Made by a program: the position numbers and the translations under genes. Shown here one piece after another: positions 24,683-45,002 of a stretch of 64,000 bases of DNA. The notes beneath the pieces were generated by a model. That model searched no databases and was not told where the DNA came from. It worked only from the letters and a program-made list of their open reading frames with translations. This DNA is from Alloprevotella sp. (GTDB taxonomy: Bacteria > Bacteroidota > Bacteroidia > Bacteroidales > Muribaculaceae), in NCBI GenBank assembly GCA_023663135.1, contig JAMPIE010000002.1, positions 1 to 64,000 on the forward strand, in the 5' to 3' direction. How positions within the stretch are numbered: position 1 is the stretch's first letter; each line of letters begins with the position of its first letter.

Positions 24683-25981
24683 ATGAAACTTTGGAGCAAG
24701 GGCTTTGAGCCCGACAAAATGATAGAAAAATTTACCGTGGGCAACGACCGCGACCTCGATCTGAGACTCGCACGCTATGATGTTCAGGGTTCTATGGCCC
24801 ACATCCGTATGCTCGAGTCTATTGGCCTTCTGGCGAAGGAGGAGCTGCCAGTGCTCCTCGATGCCCTCGCCGACATTGCCCGGATGATAGACCGGGGTGA
24901 GTTTGCCATCGCCGAGGGGGTTGAAGATGTCCATTCCCAAGTGGAATTTCTGCTAACCGAGCGCTTAGGCGACCTTGGTAAGAAGATCCATTCCGGACGT
25001 TCGCGCAACGATCAGGTGCTCGTTGATCTCAAGCTCTTCATGCGCGACGAGCTTACCCATATTGCTTATGCCACATTCTCGCTTTTTGATCTCCTGCTCT
25101 CCCTATCCGAGAAGCATAAGGATAAACTCATGCCCGGATATACCCACCTCCAGGTGGCTATGCCCTCATCCTTCGGACTGTGGTTTGGGGCTTATGCTGA
25201 GACCCTTGTTGATGATATGCAGCTCCTCTTAGCTGCATATCATGTGGCTAATCAAAACCCGCTCGGCTCTGCCGCCGGCTACGGCTCCTCCTTCCCGCTT
25301 GACCGCGAGATGACCACCCGTCTGCTCAACTTTGAGGCACCCCACTATAATGTTGTGGCGGCCCAGATGAGCCGCGGCAAGACCGAGCGCGCAGCCGCAG
25401 CTGCCATTGCTGCCATTGCCGCCACCTTAGGACACATGGCCATGGATATCTGCATGTGGATGTGCCAAAACTTTGGATTTGTCTCTTTCCCCGACAATCT
25501 CACCACCGGCTCATCCATCATGCCCCACAAGAAAAATCCCGACGTGTGGGAGATAATGCGCGGCAAGTGTAATCGCCTCCAAGCTGTCCCCAACGAGTTG
25601 GCTCTCCTGACTGCCAACCTCCCCTTAGGCTATAACCGCGACCTGCAGCTGATGAAGGATATAATCTTCCCGGCCACAACTGAGCTCAGGTCATGTATCG
25701 ATATGGCCATCTTCATGCTCCAACACATTACAGTCAGAGACAATATCCTTGATGATCCTCGATATGACTATCTTTTCACAGTAGAAGATGTCAATAGGCT
25801 CGTGCTCCAGGGGGTGCCCTTTCGCGATGCCTACAAGAGTGTGGGTATCGCCGTCCAGGAAGGCCGCTACAAGCCCACTCGCGAATTATCTCATTCCCAT
25901 CTCGGCTCAATAGGAAATCTCGCTACCGAAAAGATACGAGCCAAGATGACCCCCATCATCAACTCATTTCCGGAAGAATAA
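24683..25981 (+). CDS. argH: Argininosuccinate lyase
   Basis: A 432-residue fumarase/aspartase superfamily enzyme releasing arginine and fumarate. EDVHSQVE, GRSRNDQVLVDLKLF, TYTHLQ-type PGYTHLQVAMP and the signature TGSSIMPHKKNPDVWE are all visible, with the catalytic serine in that last loop. It completes the arginine pathway encoded in this operon and is followed after 3 nt by the nucleotidyltransferase/GHMP-like fusion. Confidence 0.96.
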   Translation: MKLWSKGFEPDKMIEKFTVGNDRDLDLRLARYDVQGSMAHIRMLESIGLLAKEELPVLLDALADIARMIDRGEFAIAEGVEDVHSQVEFLLTERLGDLGKKIHSGRSRNDQVLVDLKLFMRDELTHIAYATFSLFDLLLSLSEKHKDKLMPGYTHLQVAMPSSFGLWFGAYAETLVDDMQLLLAAYHVANQNPLGSAAGYGSSFPLDREMTTRLLNFEAPHYNVVAAQMSRGKTERAAAAAIAAIAATLGHMAMDICMWMCQNFGFVSFPDNLTTGSSIMPHKKNPDVWEIMRGKCNRLQAVPNELALLTANLPLGYNRDLQLMKDIIFPATTELRSCIDMAIFMLQHITVRDNILDDPRYDYLFTVEDVNRLVLQGVPFRDAYKSVGIAVQEGRYKPTRELSHSHLGSIGNLATEKIRAKMTPIINSFPEE

Positions 25982-25984
25982 GCG

Positions 25985-27151
25985 ATGAGCCTCGACTTAC
26001 CAGCCCGCCCCAAGGTGTTTGTCTCCGGATGTTATGACATGCTTCATTCGGGTCATGTAGCTTTCTTTAAGGAGGCATCGGCCTATGGTGACCTTTATGT
26101 TGGCATAGGCTCTGATTCCACCATCATGGAGCTTAAGCATCATAAGCCGGTCTACTCCGAGAAGGAACGCCTTTATATGGTGAAAGCCATCCGCTATGTC
26201 ACCGACGCTTCTATTAATCGTGGCTCCGGGATGCTCGATTTCATCGACACCATTGATCGTCTGAAGCCCAATATCTTTGTTGTAAATTCCGATGGCGGCA
26301 GCGACGCTAAGCGTCTCTTCTGTCAGGAGAGGGGCATCAAATACATTGTCTTGGAGCGTAAGCCCGACGAGGGGCTCGAGGCCCGTTCGACCACCTCTCT
26401 GCGCACCAGCGTCCCCTCTCGCCTCCCCTATCGTATCGACATCGCAGGCACATGGATTGACCAGCCTTACGTCTCCCAGCATGGCCACGGATGGGCCATC
26501 ACAGCCTCTATTGAGCCGACAGTGGAATTCATGGAGCGTGGGGGAATGTCAACCTCCACTCGTAATGCCGCTCGTAAGATATGGCCTTATGAGCTCCCCG
26601 ACTATAACGAGGAGATGCTCGCTCGCCTACTCTTCTGCTTTGAGAACGATCCCGAGAGCGACGGCCTTATATCCGGAGCGCAAGACTCTATTGGGATATG
26701 CATGACTGGTGTCACACGCCATTTTTATGAAGGGCGCTATTGGCCATCAAAGATTGAGCAGACCCATGACGAGGAGGTCATCTCCTGGCTGGAGAGCCAT
26801 ATAGCCCTCCTCCCCATGTTTCCGCGCCGTCCGGGTTGCTCCGTAGTTGATGGTAAAGATATAACTTCCGAGAAGGTGGGGCGGCTCACTGATGCCGCCG
26901 AGCGTTGTTGGGATGCAATGATGGCACGCGATCTCCCTGCTTTTGCTCAGGCATATCGCGACTCTTTTAAGGCCCAAACAGACATGTTCCCAGCCATGAT
27001 ACAGCCTGGCGTGGAGGAATATATATCCTACTGGGAACCTCGCTCGCTTGCCCTCAAGATGGCCGGTGCCGGTGGCGGCGGCCATCTTATCCTCGTCTTT
27101 GACAAGATACCTGACCATCCTTCGCTGATTCCTATCCGCATCCGTCGCTAA
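25985..27151 (+). CDS. Cytidylyltransferase-like domain fused to a reduced GHMP-kinase-like domain
   Basis: 388 residues in two parts. Residues about 9-142 are a nucleotidyltransferase of the cytidylyltransferase-like superfamily: VFVSGCYDMLHSGHVAFFKEA (cited as VFVSGCYDM and LHSGHVAF) includes HxGH at 21-24, and RSTTSLR near 134-140 resembles the second nucleotide motif. Residues about 147-388 resemble GHMP kinases: PYRIDIAGTWIDQP matches the sugar-kinase N-terminus and MAGAGGGGHLILVF the C-terminal glycine motif, but the central ATP loop (PxGxGLGSS) is not recognisable; SGAQDSIGICMTG stands near that place. The order is reversed relative to HldE. Substrate unknown. It is translationally adjacent (3 nt) to argH. 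Confidence 0.75.
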   Translation: MSLDLPARPKVFVSGCYDMLHSGHVAFFKEASAYGDLYVGIGSDSTIMELKHHKPVYSEKERLYMVKAIRYVTDASINRGSGMLDFIDTIDRLKPNIFVVNSDGGSDAKRLFCQERGIKYIVLERKPDEGLEARSTTSLRTSVPSRLPYRIDIAGTWIDQPYVSQHGHGWAITASIEPTVEFMERGGMSTSTRNAARKIWPYELPDYNEEMLARLLFCFENDPESDGLISGAQDSIGICMTGVTRHFYEGRYWPSKIEQTHDEEVISWLESHIALLPMFPRRPGCSVVDGKDITSEKVGRLTDAAERCWDAMMARDLPAFAQAYRDSFKAQTDMFPAMIQPGVEEYISYWEPRSLALKMAGAGGGGHLILVFDKIPDHPSLIPIRIRR

Positions 27152-27164
27152 CATAAGCACCTAT

Positions 27165-27221
27165 CATACAAGCCAACATGGGCAGCCCAGCGATAGCGGG
27201 CTGCCCATGTTGGCTTGTATG
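27165..27221 (+). terminator. 24-bp perfect hairpin ending the arginine operon
   Basis: The arms 27165-27188 and 27198-27221 are perfectly complementary, with a 9-nt loop AGCGATAGC. It lies 13 nt beyond the fusion gene stop. It has no T-tract, but its strength and place fit transcript end formation or mRNA protection. Confidence 0.7.
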
Positions 27222-27233
27222 AGTGGATGGTTT

Positions 27234-41010: not shown

Positions 41011-41071
41011 GGGCCTCAAGCCATAGCCGGAAAGCCCGGTAGTTGATTTCATATATCAACAACTTAGGCCC
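41011..41071 (-). promoter_or_regulatory. Possible structured leader upstream of the OmpA-like gene
   Basis: GGGCCT (41011-41016) pairs with AGGCCC (41066-41071), enclosing CCGG/CCGG (41027-41030 with 41036-41039) and GTTGAT/ATCAAC (41042-41047 with 41055-41060): a three-way-junction-like fold upstream of the OmpA gene. It does not match a riboswitch that I know. Confidence 0.35.
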
Positions 41072-41079
41072 CCATAGAG

Positions 41080-41110
41080 TTGTGCGAAACAAAGTTTTTG
41101 CCTACCTTTG
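41080..41110 (+). promoter_or_regulatory. Promoter of the GH31 gene
   Basis: TTG (41080-41082), 20 nt, TACCTTTG (41103-41110), about 43 nt before ATG 41154. Confidence 0.7.
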
Positions 41111-41153
41111 CCTAATATTCATAAAACGGGAAAATACCCTTAACCATCATATC

Positions 41154-44100
41154 ATGAAAAGACTCTTGTCCGGCTCCATGCAGGCCGCCGCTGCGGTGAT
41201 GGCGCTGACCATAATCGGGCAAACGCCTGCCGGTGCTATGGCCGCTCCGCTGCCTGTGACGGCCACGGCTTCTCCGACAGCTCGCCTCATAAACCTCACT
41301 ACGGCCGAGGTGAGCCTCCCCTCCGGACTCACTCTCACTATCGACTTTTATGGCGACAACATCTTCCGCCTCTTTGCCGATCCTAAGGGAGGAATTGTGC
41401 GTAACCCCATAGCAACTCCTCCGGCCGACATCTTAGTGTCCACTCCTCGCCGACCCCTCTCTGGCGTCATCTCAGTGTCCAACGCCAATGGCAACGCCAT
41501 TGTGGCTTCGCCCGACGTAACTGTCACCGTTGACTCCGCCGGGATGATTACCGTCACTGACAAGGATGGCAATCTGCTCATTGAGCAGACCGAGCCCACT
41601 GCGTTTAACGACGACTCTTTTACCCTCGGGCTGAAGGAGAAGGATGGCGAATGGTTTTATGGCGGTGGTGTACAAAACGGTCGCTTCTCCCATCGCGGAC
41701 GCGCCATTGAGATTGTCAATCAAAACTCATGGACCGATGGCGGTGTCTGCTCTCCTGCCCCATTCTTTTGGTCTACCGGAGGTTATGGCATCATGTTCCA
41801 CACCTTTGAGCCCGGACGATATGACTTCGGCGCAGAGAAGCCCGGGACTGTGGTCCTCACTCATTCTGCCCCTTACCTTGATATGTTTGTCATGGCAAGC
41901 CCCACCCCCACCGGCCTCCTCAACGACTTCTATCAGCTGACGGGAAATCCTGTGCTCCTCCCAAAGTTTGGTTTCTATCAAGGTCACCTCAATGCTTATA
42001 ACCGCGACTATTGGACTCCCGACACCACGGGTCGCGGTGTGCTCTTCGAGGATGGCATTCGCTACCGCGAGAGTCAGAAAGACAATGGCGGTATCCGAGA
42101 GAGCCTCAACGGCGAGCTCCCCGGCAACTATCAGTTCTCGGCCCGCGCCGTAGTTGACCGCTATGCCAATGCCGATATGCCCTTGGGATGGGTGCTCCCC
42201 AACGACGGCTATGGAGCCGGATATGGACAGACAGGCTCGCTGGAAGGCAACGTTGAAAACCTCAAACAGTTTGGCGACTATGCTCGCTCCAAGGGTGTCG
42301 AAATTGGCCTCTGGACTCAGAGCGACCTCCATCCCAAGGAAGGAGTTGAGCCCCTGCTCCAGCGCGACATCGTCCGCGAGGTGCGCGATGCCGGAGTCCG
42401 CGTCCTTAAGACCGACGTTGCCTGGGTGGGCTATGGCTATTCCTTTGGCCTCAATGGTGTGGCTGACGTGGGCGAGATAATGCCATATTATGGCAACGAT
42501 GCCCGCCCCTTCATCATATCCCTCGACGGATGGGCCGGCACTCAGCGTTATGCCGGCATATGGAGCGGCGACCAGACCGGCGGCGAATGGGAGTATATCC
42601 GCTTCCATATCCCCACTTACATAGGGTCAGGCCTGGCCGGTAACCCCAACATCACATCCGATATGGATGGGATTTTTGGCGGCAAAAAGCCGGTGATAAA
42701 CACTCGCGACTTCCAGTGGAAGACGTGGACCCCCATGCAGCTTAATATGGATGGCTGGGGAGCCAATGAAAAATATCCCCAGGCAATGGGCGAGCCTTAT
42801 ACATCCATCAACCGCCACTACCTCAAGCTCAAGAGCCAGTTGATGCCCTATGCTTACACCTATGCTCGCGAGGCTGTTGATGGTAAGCCTCTTATCAGGG
42901 CAATGTTCTTGGATTATCCCAACACCTACACCTACTCTCCGGCCACACGTTACCAATATCTCTATGGTCCCGACTTCCTCATCGCCCCCATATACCAAGC
43001 CACTGCCTCCGACGACCAGGGCAACGACATTCGCAATGGTATATACCTCCCCGAGGGGATCTGGATTGACTATTTCAACGGCGATGCATACCATGGCGGA
43101 CGCGTGATCAACTCGTTCCCGGCTCCGGTGTGGAAGCTGCCCGTGTTTGTGCGACAAGGCGCCATCATCCCCATGGTCAACCCCAACAACAATCCCTCCG
43201 AGATCAATAAGAGCCTCCGCATTTACGAGCTCTATCCCGCCCCCGGTACATCGGAGATGACCGAGTATGACGACGATGGAACCACCGAGGCCTACCTTCG
43301 CGGCCAAAGTGCCACTACCCATATCTCCATGACCCTCTCCGACAAGGATGTCCTCTCAATCGATGTTGCTCCCACCCAGGGTTCTTTCGAAGGCATGCAG
43401 CCCATGAAGTCTACAGAGCTGATTATCAATGCGACGTCGATGCCTAAGTCGGTTGAGTCAACCATAGGTTCAAAGGTGAAGCTCACCAGGGTATCGACCC
43501 TCGAGGAGTTTAACCGCGGCGGCGAAAATATATGGTATTATAATCCTGCACCCGAGCTCAACACATTTGCCACCCCCGGCAGCGAGTTTGCTTCTGTCAA
43601 GATCACCAAAAATCCTCAGATTCTCGTCCGCCTTGCCACTACTAACACTGCCGAGAATGGCATCCGGGTAACTGTGAAGGGGTATAAGTACGACACCACC
43701 GACAAGCTCCTCGCTTCCCATGGCTCCCTCTCAGCTCCCATGGCTGCTCAGAGCGTTGTTGAGCCTTATGCTGTAACGCCCAAATGGGCCACGGTTGAGA
43801 ATGCCGACTTCTATGAGGTGGAATTTGATGGTATGAACTACTCCACCATTGCTGCCGATTCACTCTCCTTTACCGACCTCCAGCCTGAGACCGACTATGT
43901 ATTCAAGGTTCGTGCGGTCAATGCCGATGGCCAGTCGCCCTGGACCGAGATAGCCGTCAAGACCCTCGGCAATCCTCTTGAGCATGCCATCCATGACATC
44001 CGCGGCCGTGCATCCTCGCCCGACCAGGAGGGATTTGAGGCCTGGCATCTCTTTGACTTTGCCGAAAGCGGCGACATCTATCACTCGCAGTATCAGACCA

Positions 44101-45002
44101 ACGCTCTCCCATGCACTATCACCGCCGATCTCGTCGCTGTCAACCATCTCGATAAGATGGAGTATCTCCCGCGCGACAATGCAGGCAACGGCACCATCCT
44201 CGCCGGCTCTGTCCAGACCTCGATCAATGGCAATGATTGGAGCGAGCCTGTAGCCTTTGAATGGGCTCGCGACAAGGCCGTGAAGACCTTTGTCTTTGAA
44301 AGTCACCCCGATGCTCGATATGTCCGCATCAACGTCGACAAGGCCGTTGGTAACTACGTGAGCGGCAGAGAGCTTTATATCTTCCGCACTCCCGGCTCAG
44401 AGCCTTACTATCAAGGCGATATTAACAAAGATGGAAAGATAGACGACAACGACTTCACCTCGTATATGAACTATACCGGCCTGCGCCGTGGCGACTCTGA
44501 CTTTGACTATGTGTCGGTAGGTGATGTCAACGCCAATGGTCTCATCGATGCCTACGATATCTCTCTCGTGGCCCGTGAGCTTGATGGCGGTCTCATCCTT
44601 CCCGATTCTGTGTTGACAGCTCCGCAGGGCTCCCTGACCTTTGCCGTCGCCCCTCGTCGTGCTGTCAATGCCGGTGATGAAGTTACTGTTACTGTGAGCG
44701 GCAAGGCTCTCAAGGCCATCAATGCTCTCTCCTTTGCCCTCCCTTACAATGCTCTCGACTTTGAGTATATAGGCATCAAGGCTTCCGGCCTCAATGAGAT
44801 GGCCAATCTCACTTACGACCGACTCCATACCTCCGGCGACAAGGTGCTCTATCCCACCTTTGTCAATCGTGGCACTAAGCCCATGGCCGATGGGAGCGGC
44901 GAGATTATCACCATCACGTTCCGCGCCAAGCGCAAGGCCGCCTTCACCCTCAGCCCCTGCGACATCATCCTCGTCGGGCCCGACGGACAGACTGTCAAAT
45001 AA
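41154..45002 (+). CDS. Modular GH31 glycosidase with FN3, discoidin-like, dockerin-like and cohesin-like modules
   Basis: About 1282 residues from ATG 41154 (MKRLLSGSMQAAAAV, signal peptide to about residue 30). The GH31 part occupies about 40-830: an N-terminal beta-sandwich (GLKEKDGEWFYGGGVQNG), a barrel with nucleophile D421 in LKTDVAWVGYGY and acid/base D473 in IWSGDQTGGEW, and a C-terminal beta domain. Then FN3 (about 860-938), discoidin-like (about 945-1080), a two-repeat dockerin-like region (GDINKDGKIDDND near 1088; GDVNANGLIDAYD near 1123), and a cohesin-like end (about 1150-1282). Substrate is likely an alpha-glucan; linkage unknown. No T9SS sorting domain is seen. Confidence 0.87.
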   Translation: MKRLLSGSMQAAAAVMALTIIGQTPAGAMAAPLPVTATASPTARLINLTTAEVSLPSGLTLTIDFYGDNIFRLFADPKGGIVRNPIATPPADILVSTPRRPLSGVISVSNANGNAIVASPDVTVTVDSAGMITVTDKDGNLLIEQTEPTAFNDDSFTLGLKEKDGEWFYGGGVQNGRFSHRGRAIEIVNQNSWTDGGVCSPAPFFWSTGGYGIMFHTFEPGRYDFGAEKPGTVVLTHSAPYLDMFVMASPTPTGLLNDFYQLTGNPVLLPKFGFYQGHLNAYNRDYWTPDTTGRGVLFEDGIRYRESQKDNGGIRESLNGELPGNYQFSARAVVDRYANADMPLGWVLPNDGYGAGYGQTGSLEGNVENLKQFGDYARSKGVEIGLWTQSDLHPKEGVEPLLQRDIVREVRDAGVRVLKTDVAWVGYGYSFGLNGVADVGEIMPYYGNDARPFIISLDGWAGTQRYAGIWSGDQTGGEWEYIRFHIPTYIGSGLAGNPNITSDMDGIFGGKKPVINTRDFQWKTWTPMQLNMDGWGANEKYPQAMGEPYTSINRHYLKLKSQLMPYAYTYAREAVDGKPLIRAMFLDYPNTYTYSPATRYQYLYGPDFLIAPIYQATASDDQGNDIRNGIYLPEGIWIDYFNGDAYHGGRVINSFPAPVWKLPVFVRQGAIIPMVNPNNNPSEINKSLRIYELYPAPGTSEMTEYDDDGTTEAYLRGQSATTHISMTLSDKDVLSIDVAPTQGSFEGMQPMKSTELIINATSMPKSVESTIGSKVKLTRVSTLEEFNRGGENIWYYNPAPELNTFATPGSEFASVKITKNPQILVRLATTNTAENGIRVTVKGYKYDTTDKLLASHGSLSAPMAAQSVVEPYAVTPKWATVENADFYEVEFDGMNYSTIAADSLSFTDLQPETDYVFKVRAVNADGQSPWTEIAVKTLGNPLEHAIHDIRGRASSPDQEGFEAWHLFDFAESGDIYHSQYQTNALPCTITADLVAVNHLDKMEYLPRDNAGNGTILAGSVQTSINGNDWSEPVAFEWARDKAVKTFVFESHPDARYVRINVDKAVGNYVSGRELYIFRTPGSEPYYQGDINKDGKIDDNDFTSYMNYTGLRRGDSDFDYVSVGDVNANGLIDAYDISLVARELDGGLILPDSVLTAPQGSLTFAVAPRRAVNAGDEVTVTVSGKALKAINALSFALPYNALDFEYIGIKASGLNEMANLTYDRLHTSGDKVLYPTFVNRGTKPMADGSGEIITITFRAKRKAAFTLSPCDIILVGPDGQTVK

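Follow-up and report, generated by a model that had tools for sequence, protein, structure and literature searches.

What does a 388-residue protein with a nucleotidyltransferase half and a kinase-like half do at the end of an arginine operon? Its gene lies in a 64,000-nucleotide stretch of one contig of Alloprevotella sp. (the 64-kb window), no family is assigned to it by Pfam or NCBIfam, and a PHROGs search matches the transferase domain only. We consider it likely that the protein is a bifunctional enzyme of L-fucose salvage, that is, an alternative L-fucokinase/fucose-1-phosphate nucleotidylyltransferase that replaces Fkp (B. fragilis type; NF009948), a bifunctional L-fucokinase/GDP-fucose pyrophosphorylase, non-orthologously, and that its product is probably GDP-L-fucose. 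The salvage role itself is well supported, as several independent lines of evidence agree on it. The locus comprises:

24683–25981, + strand: argH, the last arginine gene; the fusion gene begins 3 nt after its stop
25985–27151, + strand: NTase-GHMP fusion gene, 388 aa; ATG start, single intact open reading frame
27164–27222, + strand: long hairpin 3′ of the fusion gene, probable transcript end; RNA fold −58.7 kcal/mol, z −11.4

The sequence-only reading had placed the start of the fusion gene 3 nt after argH, and this is correct: argH stops at 25981, and the fusion reading frame opens at 25985 on the same strand. The two genes have similar GC, the GC content of the fusion gene gives no sign of recent horizontal acquisition, and the gene is present as a single copy in its own genome. 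Behind it, the hairpin, very stable with a stem of ~25 bp, separates the arginine operon from a tRNA-Met gene on the opposite strand, and is probably the transcript end. That the gene is real follows from the over 260 relatives that the genome collection contains, and from catalytic motifs without variation in sets of 36 and 44 diverse members; within the same genus, 4 of 34 genomes carry it. Two genomes (G546, loci L159 and L160; G905, loci L196 and L197) hold two full-length copies at separate places, and one copy (L117:4709–6487), which adjoins an alpha-L-fucosidase gene, is a 592-aa reading frame, ~200 residues above the usual length, where the surplus may be an extra domain or a start-site artefact. 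Elsewhere in the window (41043–45002, + strand) lies a gene for a 1319-aa GH31 glycosidase with dockerin type I, cohesin, F5/8 type C and fn3 domains.

The N-terminal half is a nucleotidyltransferase:

26012–26398, + strand: HxGH-type nucleotidyltransferase domain, residues ~10–138; PF01467, Foldseek
26045–26056, + strand: HSGH signature, residues 21–24; G23 and H24 invariant, H21 in at least 90%

The cytidylyltransferase-like model PF01467 covers residues 13–108 above its gathering score (E = 1.2e-12), and both the Rossmann-like fold and the HxGH signature are those of the HxGH nucleotidyltransferase superfamily, with D(M/L/I)LHSGH found in 126 of 131 relatives. The known HxGH enzymes use CTP or ATP, and it is such enzymes that this half resembles, namely ethanolamine-phosphate and glycerol-3-phosphate cytidylyltransferases and HldC/HldE; Foldseek returns HldC and the glycerol-3-phosphate cytidylyltransferases with TMt 0.68–0.85, and rfaE_dom_II (TIGR02199, NCBIfam) scores 52.4 bits against a cut-off of 181.5 (E = 4.8e-14). 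No call on base specificity is obtainable from this half. The fucose-1-phosphate guanylyltransferases in the literature searched are all of the GFPP family, and neither Pfam nor NCBIfam matches a GFPP-type guanylyltransferase domain in the fusion N-terminus.

The remainder of the protein is a reduced GHMP kinase, so that the fusion of a cytidylyltransferase-like with a GHMP-like domain, as first read from the sequence, is borne out:

26426–27148, + strand: short GHMP-kinase half, residues 148–388; predicted model, top PDB match the fucokinase part of FKP
26426–26467, + strand: GHMP motif 1, PYRIDIAGTWIDQP; R150, W157 and D159 align with FKP R592, W599 and D601
26534–26560, + strand: divergent ATP loop ERGGMSTST, residues 184–192; S191 aligns with the FKP Mg-ligand S719
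26642–26644, + strand: E220, approximate counterpart of the essential FKP E751 by profile alignment; invariant
26672–26686, + strand: SGAQD, residues 230–234; Q233 and D234 align with FKP Q761 and the general base D762, both invariant
27065–27082, + strand: GHMP motif 3, GAGGGG, residues 361–366; alignment and profile search

While GHMP_kinases_C (PF08544) remains sub-threshold on this half (13.1 bits against a cut-off of 21), fold and profile searches make its GHMP nature clear, and its fold and motifs 1–3 are those of the GHMP kinase superfamily. The full-length model has a pLDDT of 84, and the GHMP half predicted alone a pLDDT of 92.6 and a pTM of 0.90. A profile search against the PDB puts the FKP fucokinase first (3.1e-13) and a heptokinase next (1e-9), and in the fold search, too, heptokinases come behind the FKP fucokinase (9iip, the structure with fucose-1-phosphate), an order that is suggestive only, as the superpositions have large rmsd values of 8–9 Å, so that the residue alignment carries more weight. 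In this alignment, FKP R592, W599, D601, S719, E751, Q761 and D762, the roles of which are taken from the published FKP structure (PMC11982464), correspond to R150, W157, D159, S191, E220, Q233 and D234, all invariant in both sets of diverse members; the fusion thus carries the residues of an Fkp-type GHMP fucokinase, with the E220/E751 equivalence approximate because of a 3-residue insertion between E220 and D234. Of these, W599 stacks on the sugar in FKP, and its loss lowers the efficiency for fucose more than 3000-fold (PMC11982464). The motif-1 Trp is common to the fusion and Fkp and is a Gly in solved heptokinases, but it also occurs in a sibling NTase-GHMP family and is hence not unique to fucokinases in the set compared. 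The ATP loop, initially taken to be unrecognizable, is shortened and divergent and yet can be placed by profile alignment, in which ERGGMSTST stands opposite PRGSGLSTST of the sibling family, and the latter opposite PAGSGLGTSS of FKP.

The sugar is suggested by the gene neighborhoods. We surveyed 135 related loci, some of them short contigs, for genes on the same strand and at most four genes from the fusion, and found fucP in 42, gmd in 39, fcl in 38 and a mutarotase in 16, with any of the four in 83 loci and none in the other 52. The neighboring fucP (L-fucose permease) passes the equivalog cut-off of TIGR00885, gmd passes that of TIGR01472, fcl falls just under its cut-off (477/500), and the mutarotase is of the RhaM family. 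A same-genus species has the order gmd-mutarotase-fucP-fusion-fcl, in other orders of the class the fusion is again grouped tightly with fucP and the mutarotase (fusion-fucP-mutarotase), and GH29 alpha-L-fucosidases are found in 10 fusion loci. In Fkp genomes, Fkp can occupy the equivalent slot, for example at locus L186 (gmd-x-fcl-Fkp-mutarotase-fucP). A survey of this kind had been suggested as a check on the sequence-only reading, and the recurrence of fucP, mutarotase, gmd, fcl and alpha-L-fucosidases bears on its proposal that a sugar or polyol phosphate of unknown identity is nucleotidylated: a sugar phosphate is indeed probable, whereas the neighbors, the exclusion of Fkp and the conserved residues point to L-fucose rather than to an unknown sugar.

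The fusion and Fkp also exclude one another. Among 348 genomes of one family, 53 carry the fusion, 184 carry Fkp and none carries both, where 28 would be expected (P = 2.4e-20). Five genera hold both states, and the probability of no overlap when stratified by genus does not exceed 3.5e-7 under the worst-case allocation and is ~1e-8 under the proportional one, the remaining genomes having been allotted to genera by these least-favorable and proportional schemes and not by actual genus totals. All these P values treat species as independent and therefore overstate the certainty, yet both states occur within at least five genera. We relied on this family sample because a sample of 198 genomes of the order (full-length fusion in 26, Fkp over the cut-off in 14, both in none) is not significant on its own (expected 1.8, P = 0.13). 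Over all samples together, 87 genomes have the fusion, 200 have Fkp and none has both. The genome studied, with an estimated completeness of 99.7%, fits this pattern: the Fkp profile, its kinase part included, finds no match, Gmd is not found (best match 29% identity), and neither is FucI. It does have fucP (586 bits against a cut-off of 280), which adjoins a mutarotase gene on the same contig, ~53 kb from the fusion (contig positions 80210–81894, outside the window). Among the routes looked for, imported L-fucose would thus have no recognized fate besides the fusion enzyme.

Taking these observations together, L-fucose would be imported via FucP, and the RhaM-family mutarotase would convert it to the correct anomer. 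The GHMP half would then phosphorylate L-fucose at its C1-OH with the γ-phosphate of ATP, D234 acting as the base and the transition state being stabilized by R150 and by a Mg ion held at S191, while W157 could stack on the 6-deoxy face of fucose and D159 and Q233 hold its hydroxyls. From the resulting β-L-fucose-1-phosphate and a nucleotide, most likely GTP, the HxGH half would produce GDP-L-fucose for surface fucosylation. We note that architecture, residue conservation, gene context and Fkp exclusion are computed observations, from which we infer L-fucose as the substrate; the activity of both halves and the guanosine nucleotide are likewise deduced, from the role and not from the sequence.

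Several points speak against the fucose reading, in that the ATP loop is divergent, the kinase half is ~110 residues short compared to Fkp, GTP would be an atypical nucleotide for an HxGH enzyme, 52 of the 135 loci show none of the four neighbors in the range surveyed, the gene lies in the arginine operon and apart from fucP in its own genome, and the sibling family, which has the same motif-1 Trp, scores best against heptokinase models. This last point, along with the weak acceptance of D-arabinose and L-galactose by Fkp itself (PMC11982464) and the match of the sibling family to heptose-transferase models, would fit activation of a related sugar (D-arabinose, L-galactose, 6-deoxy-heptose or heptose phosphate), with the fucose neighbors reflecting shared surface-glycan loci; given the adjacency of fucP (38/135), the fucosidases, the swap with Fkp in the same slot, and a Trp common to Fkp and not to heptokinases, we regard this as very unlikely. 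The resemblance of the transferase half to CTP- and ATP-using enzymes could instead mean that the same substrate is converted, in the same role, to CDP- or ADP-L-fucose, feeding transferases with another donor specificity. This is unlikely as well, since the exclusion of Fkp and the linkage to gmd and fcl, the product of which is GDP-fucose, favor GDP-fucose.

It is harder still to maintain that the GHMP half has lost catalytic activity and serves only as a sugar sensor beside an active transferase half. Its shortening, its divergent ATP loop and the sub-cut-off Pfam GHMP models are what one would expect in that case, but no aligned catalytic residue varies among the diverse members compared, not even the general base or the Mg ligand, and genomes lacking Fkp would still need a fucokinase, of which the Fkp profile finds none in the genome studied; the mere ligand sensor that had been entertained for this half is thus unsupported and highly improbable. 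As for a role in arginine metabolism, the position 3 nt behind argH, on the same strand and with similar GC, is real, and the gene does end the arginine operon here. However, argH and argE were near the fusion in none of the other relatives examined, and the argH loci of same-genus species have no fusion gene after argH. The arginine context is private to this Alloprevotella sp. genome, and on these two surveys we rejected an arginine role, to which we assign a negligible probability.

Returning to L-fucose salvage, we find it reasonably probable that Bacteroidia without Fkp possess a second, independently assembled GDP-L-fucose salvage enzyme, in which a recruited HxGH GTP:fucose-1-phosphate guanylyltransferase is joined to a reduced fucokinase. 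For Bacteroides, surface fucosylation matters in colonization: B. fragilis mutated in gmd-fcl/fkp loses out in competition (PMC8698959). The bacterial route of fucose salvage that has been described is Fkp, and many gut Bacteroidales lack it; if our proposal is true, these bacteria salvage host fucose by a different enzyme, the trait is more widespread than Fkp alone would indicate, and a much smaller protein becomes available for the synthesis of activated fucose. GTP, if used, would be unusual for HxGH enzymes and a new base specificity for the superfamily. The open-access literature describes no NTase-GHMP fucose enzyme, only Fkp, although such absence is no proof. The most recent study of FKP evolution, which favored a single ancestral fusion with the GFPP domain, restricted its FKP set to 745–1745 aa (PMC12732313) and for that reason would have missed a fusion of 388 aa.

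Compared to known systems, the fusion is closest to Fkp. The two share matching catalytic and fucose-binding residues in the GHMP half, a transferase-then-kinase order (for Fkp, PMC11982464), the neighbors fucP, mutarotase, gmd and fcl, and mutually exclusive distributions. They differ in size (388 aa against ~950 aa), in the transferase, which is HxGH cytidylyltransferase-like in the fusion and a GFPP domain in Fkp, and in the GHMP half, which is ~110 residues shorter in the fusion and has a divergent ATP loop. In agreement, hhalign finds the kinase half alone in common, and NF009948 scores 17.3 bits against a cut-off of 721, in two weak stretches of which the better is residues 338–371, at the glycine-rich motif.

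HldE and HldC (heptose-1-phosphate adenylyltransferase) share the HxGH domain with the fusion (TIGR02199, E = 4.8e-14), but HldE has an N-terminal PfkB-type kinase, whereas the kinase half here is GHMP and C-terminal, with no PfkB match in Pfam or the fold search. The order opposite to HldE noted from the sequence is therefore confirmed, and the proposed structural comparison with HldE, FKP and GHMP kinases, once run, gave the FKP fucokinase as top match and the domain order of Fkp. An HldE-like heptose role was rejected, as NF008454 (HldE) reaches 35.1 of 521 bits, TIGR02199 is also below its cut-off, and the kinase is of the wrong type. The GHMP heptokinases HddA and WcbL have the GHMP fold and a related motif 3, but match less well than Fkp, stand alone and have Gly where motif 1 of the fusion has Trp. 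The sibling NTase-GHMP family (~450 aa; L098:5281–6663, L099:5165–6514, L100:4942–6291, L102:2243–3337) has the same architecture, at 31% identity and a full-length hhalign E of 2.5e-39 (L098, L099, L100), but differs in its fuller GHMP half, canonical PRGSGLSTST loop, other neighbors and best kinase model, HddA; its best transferase model is rfaE_dom_II, and it may serve to activate a heptose or a 6-deoxy-sugar. Set against these systems, the fusion, which had been put forward as a candidate for undescribed chemistry, most likely performs a known role, L-fucose salvage, in a new architecture of HxGH transferase and reduced GHMP fucokinase.
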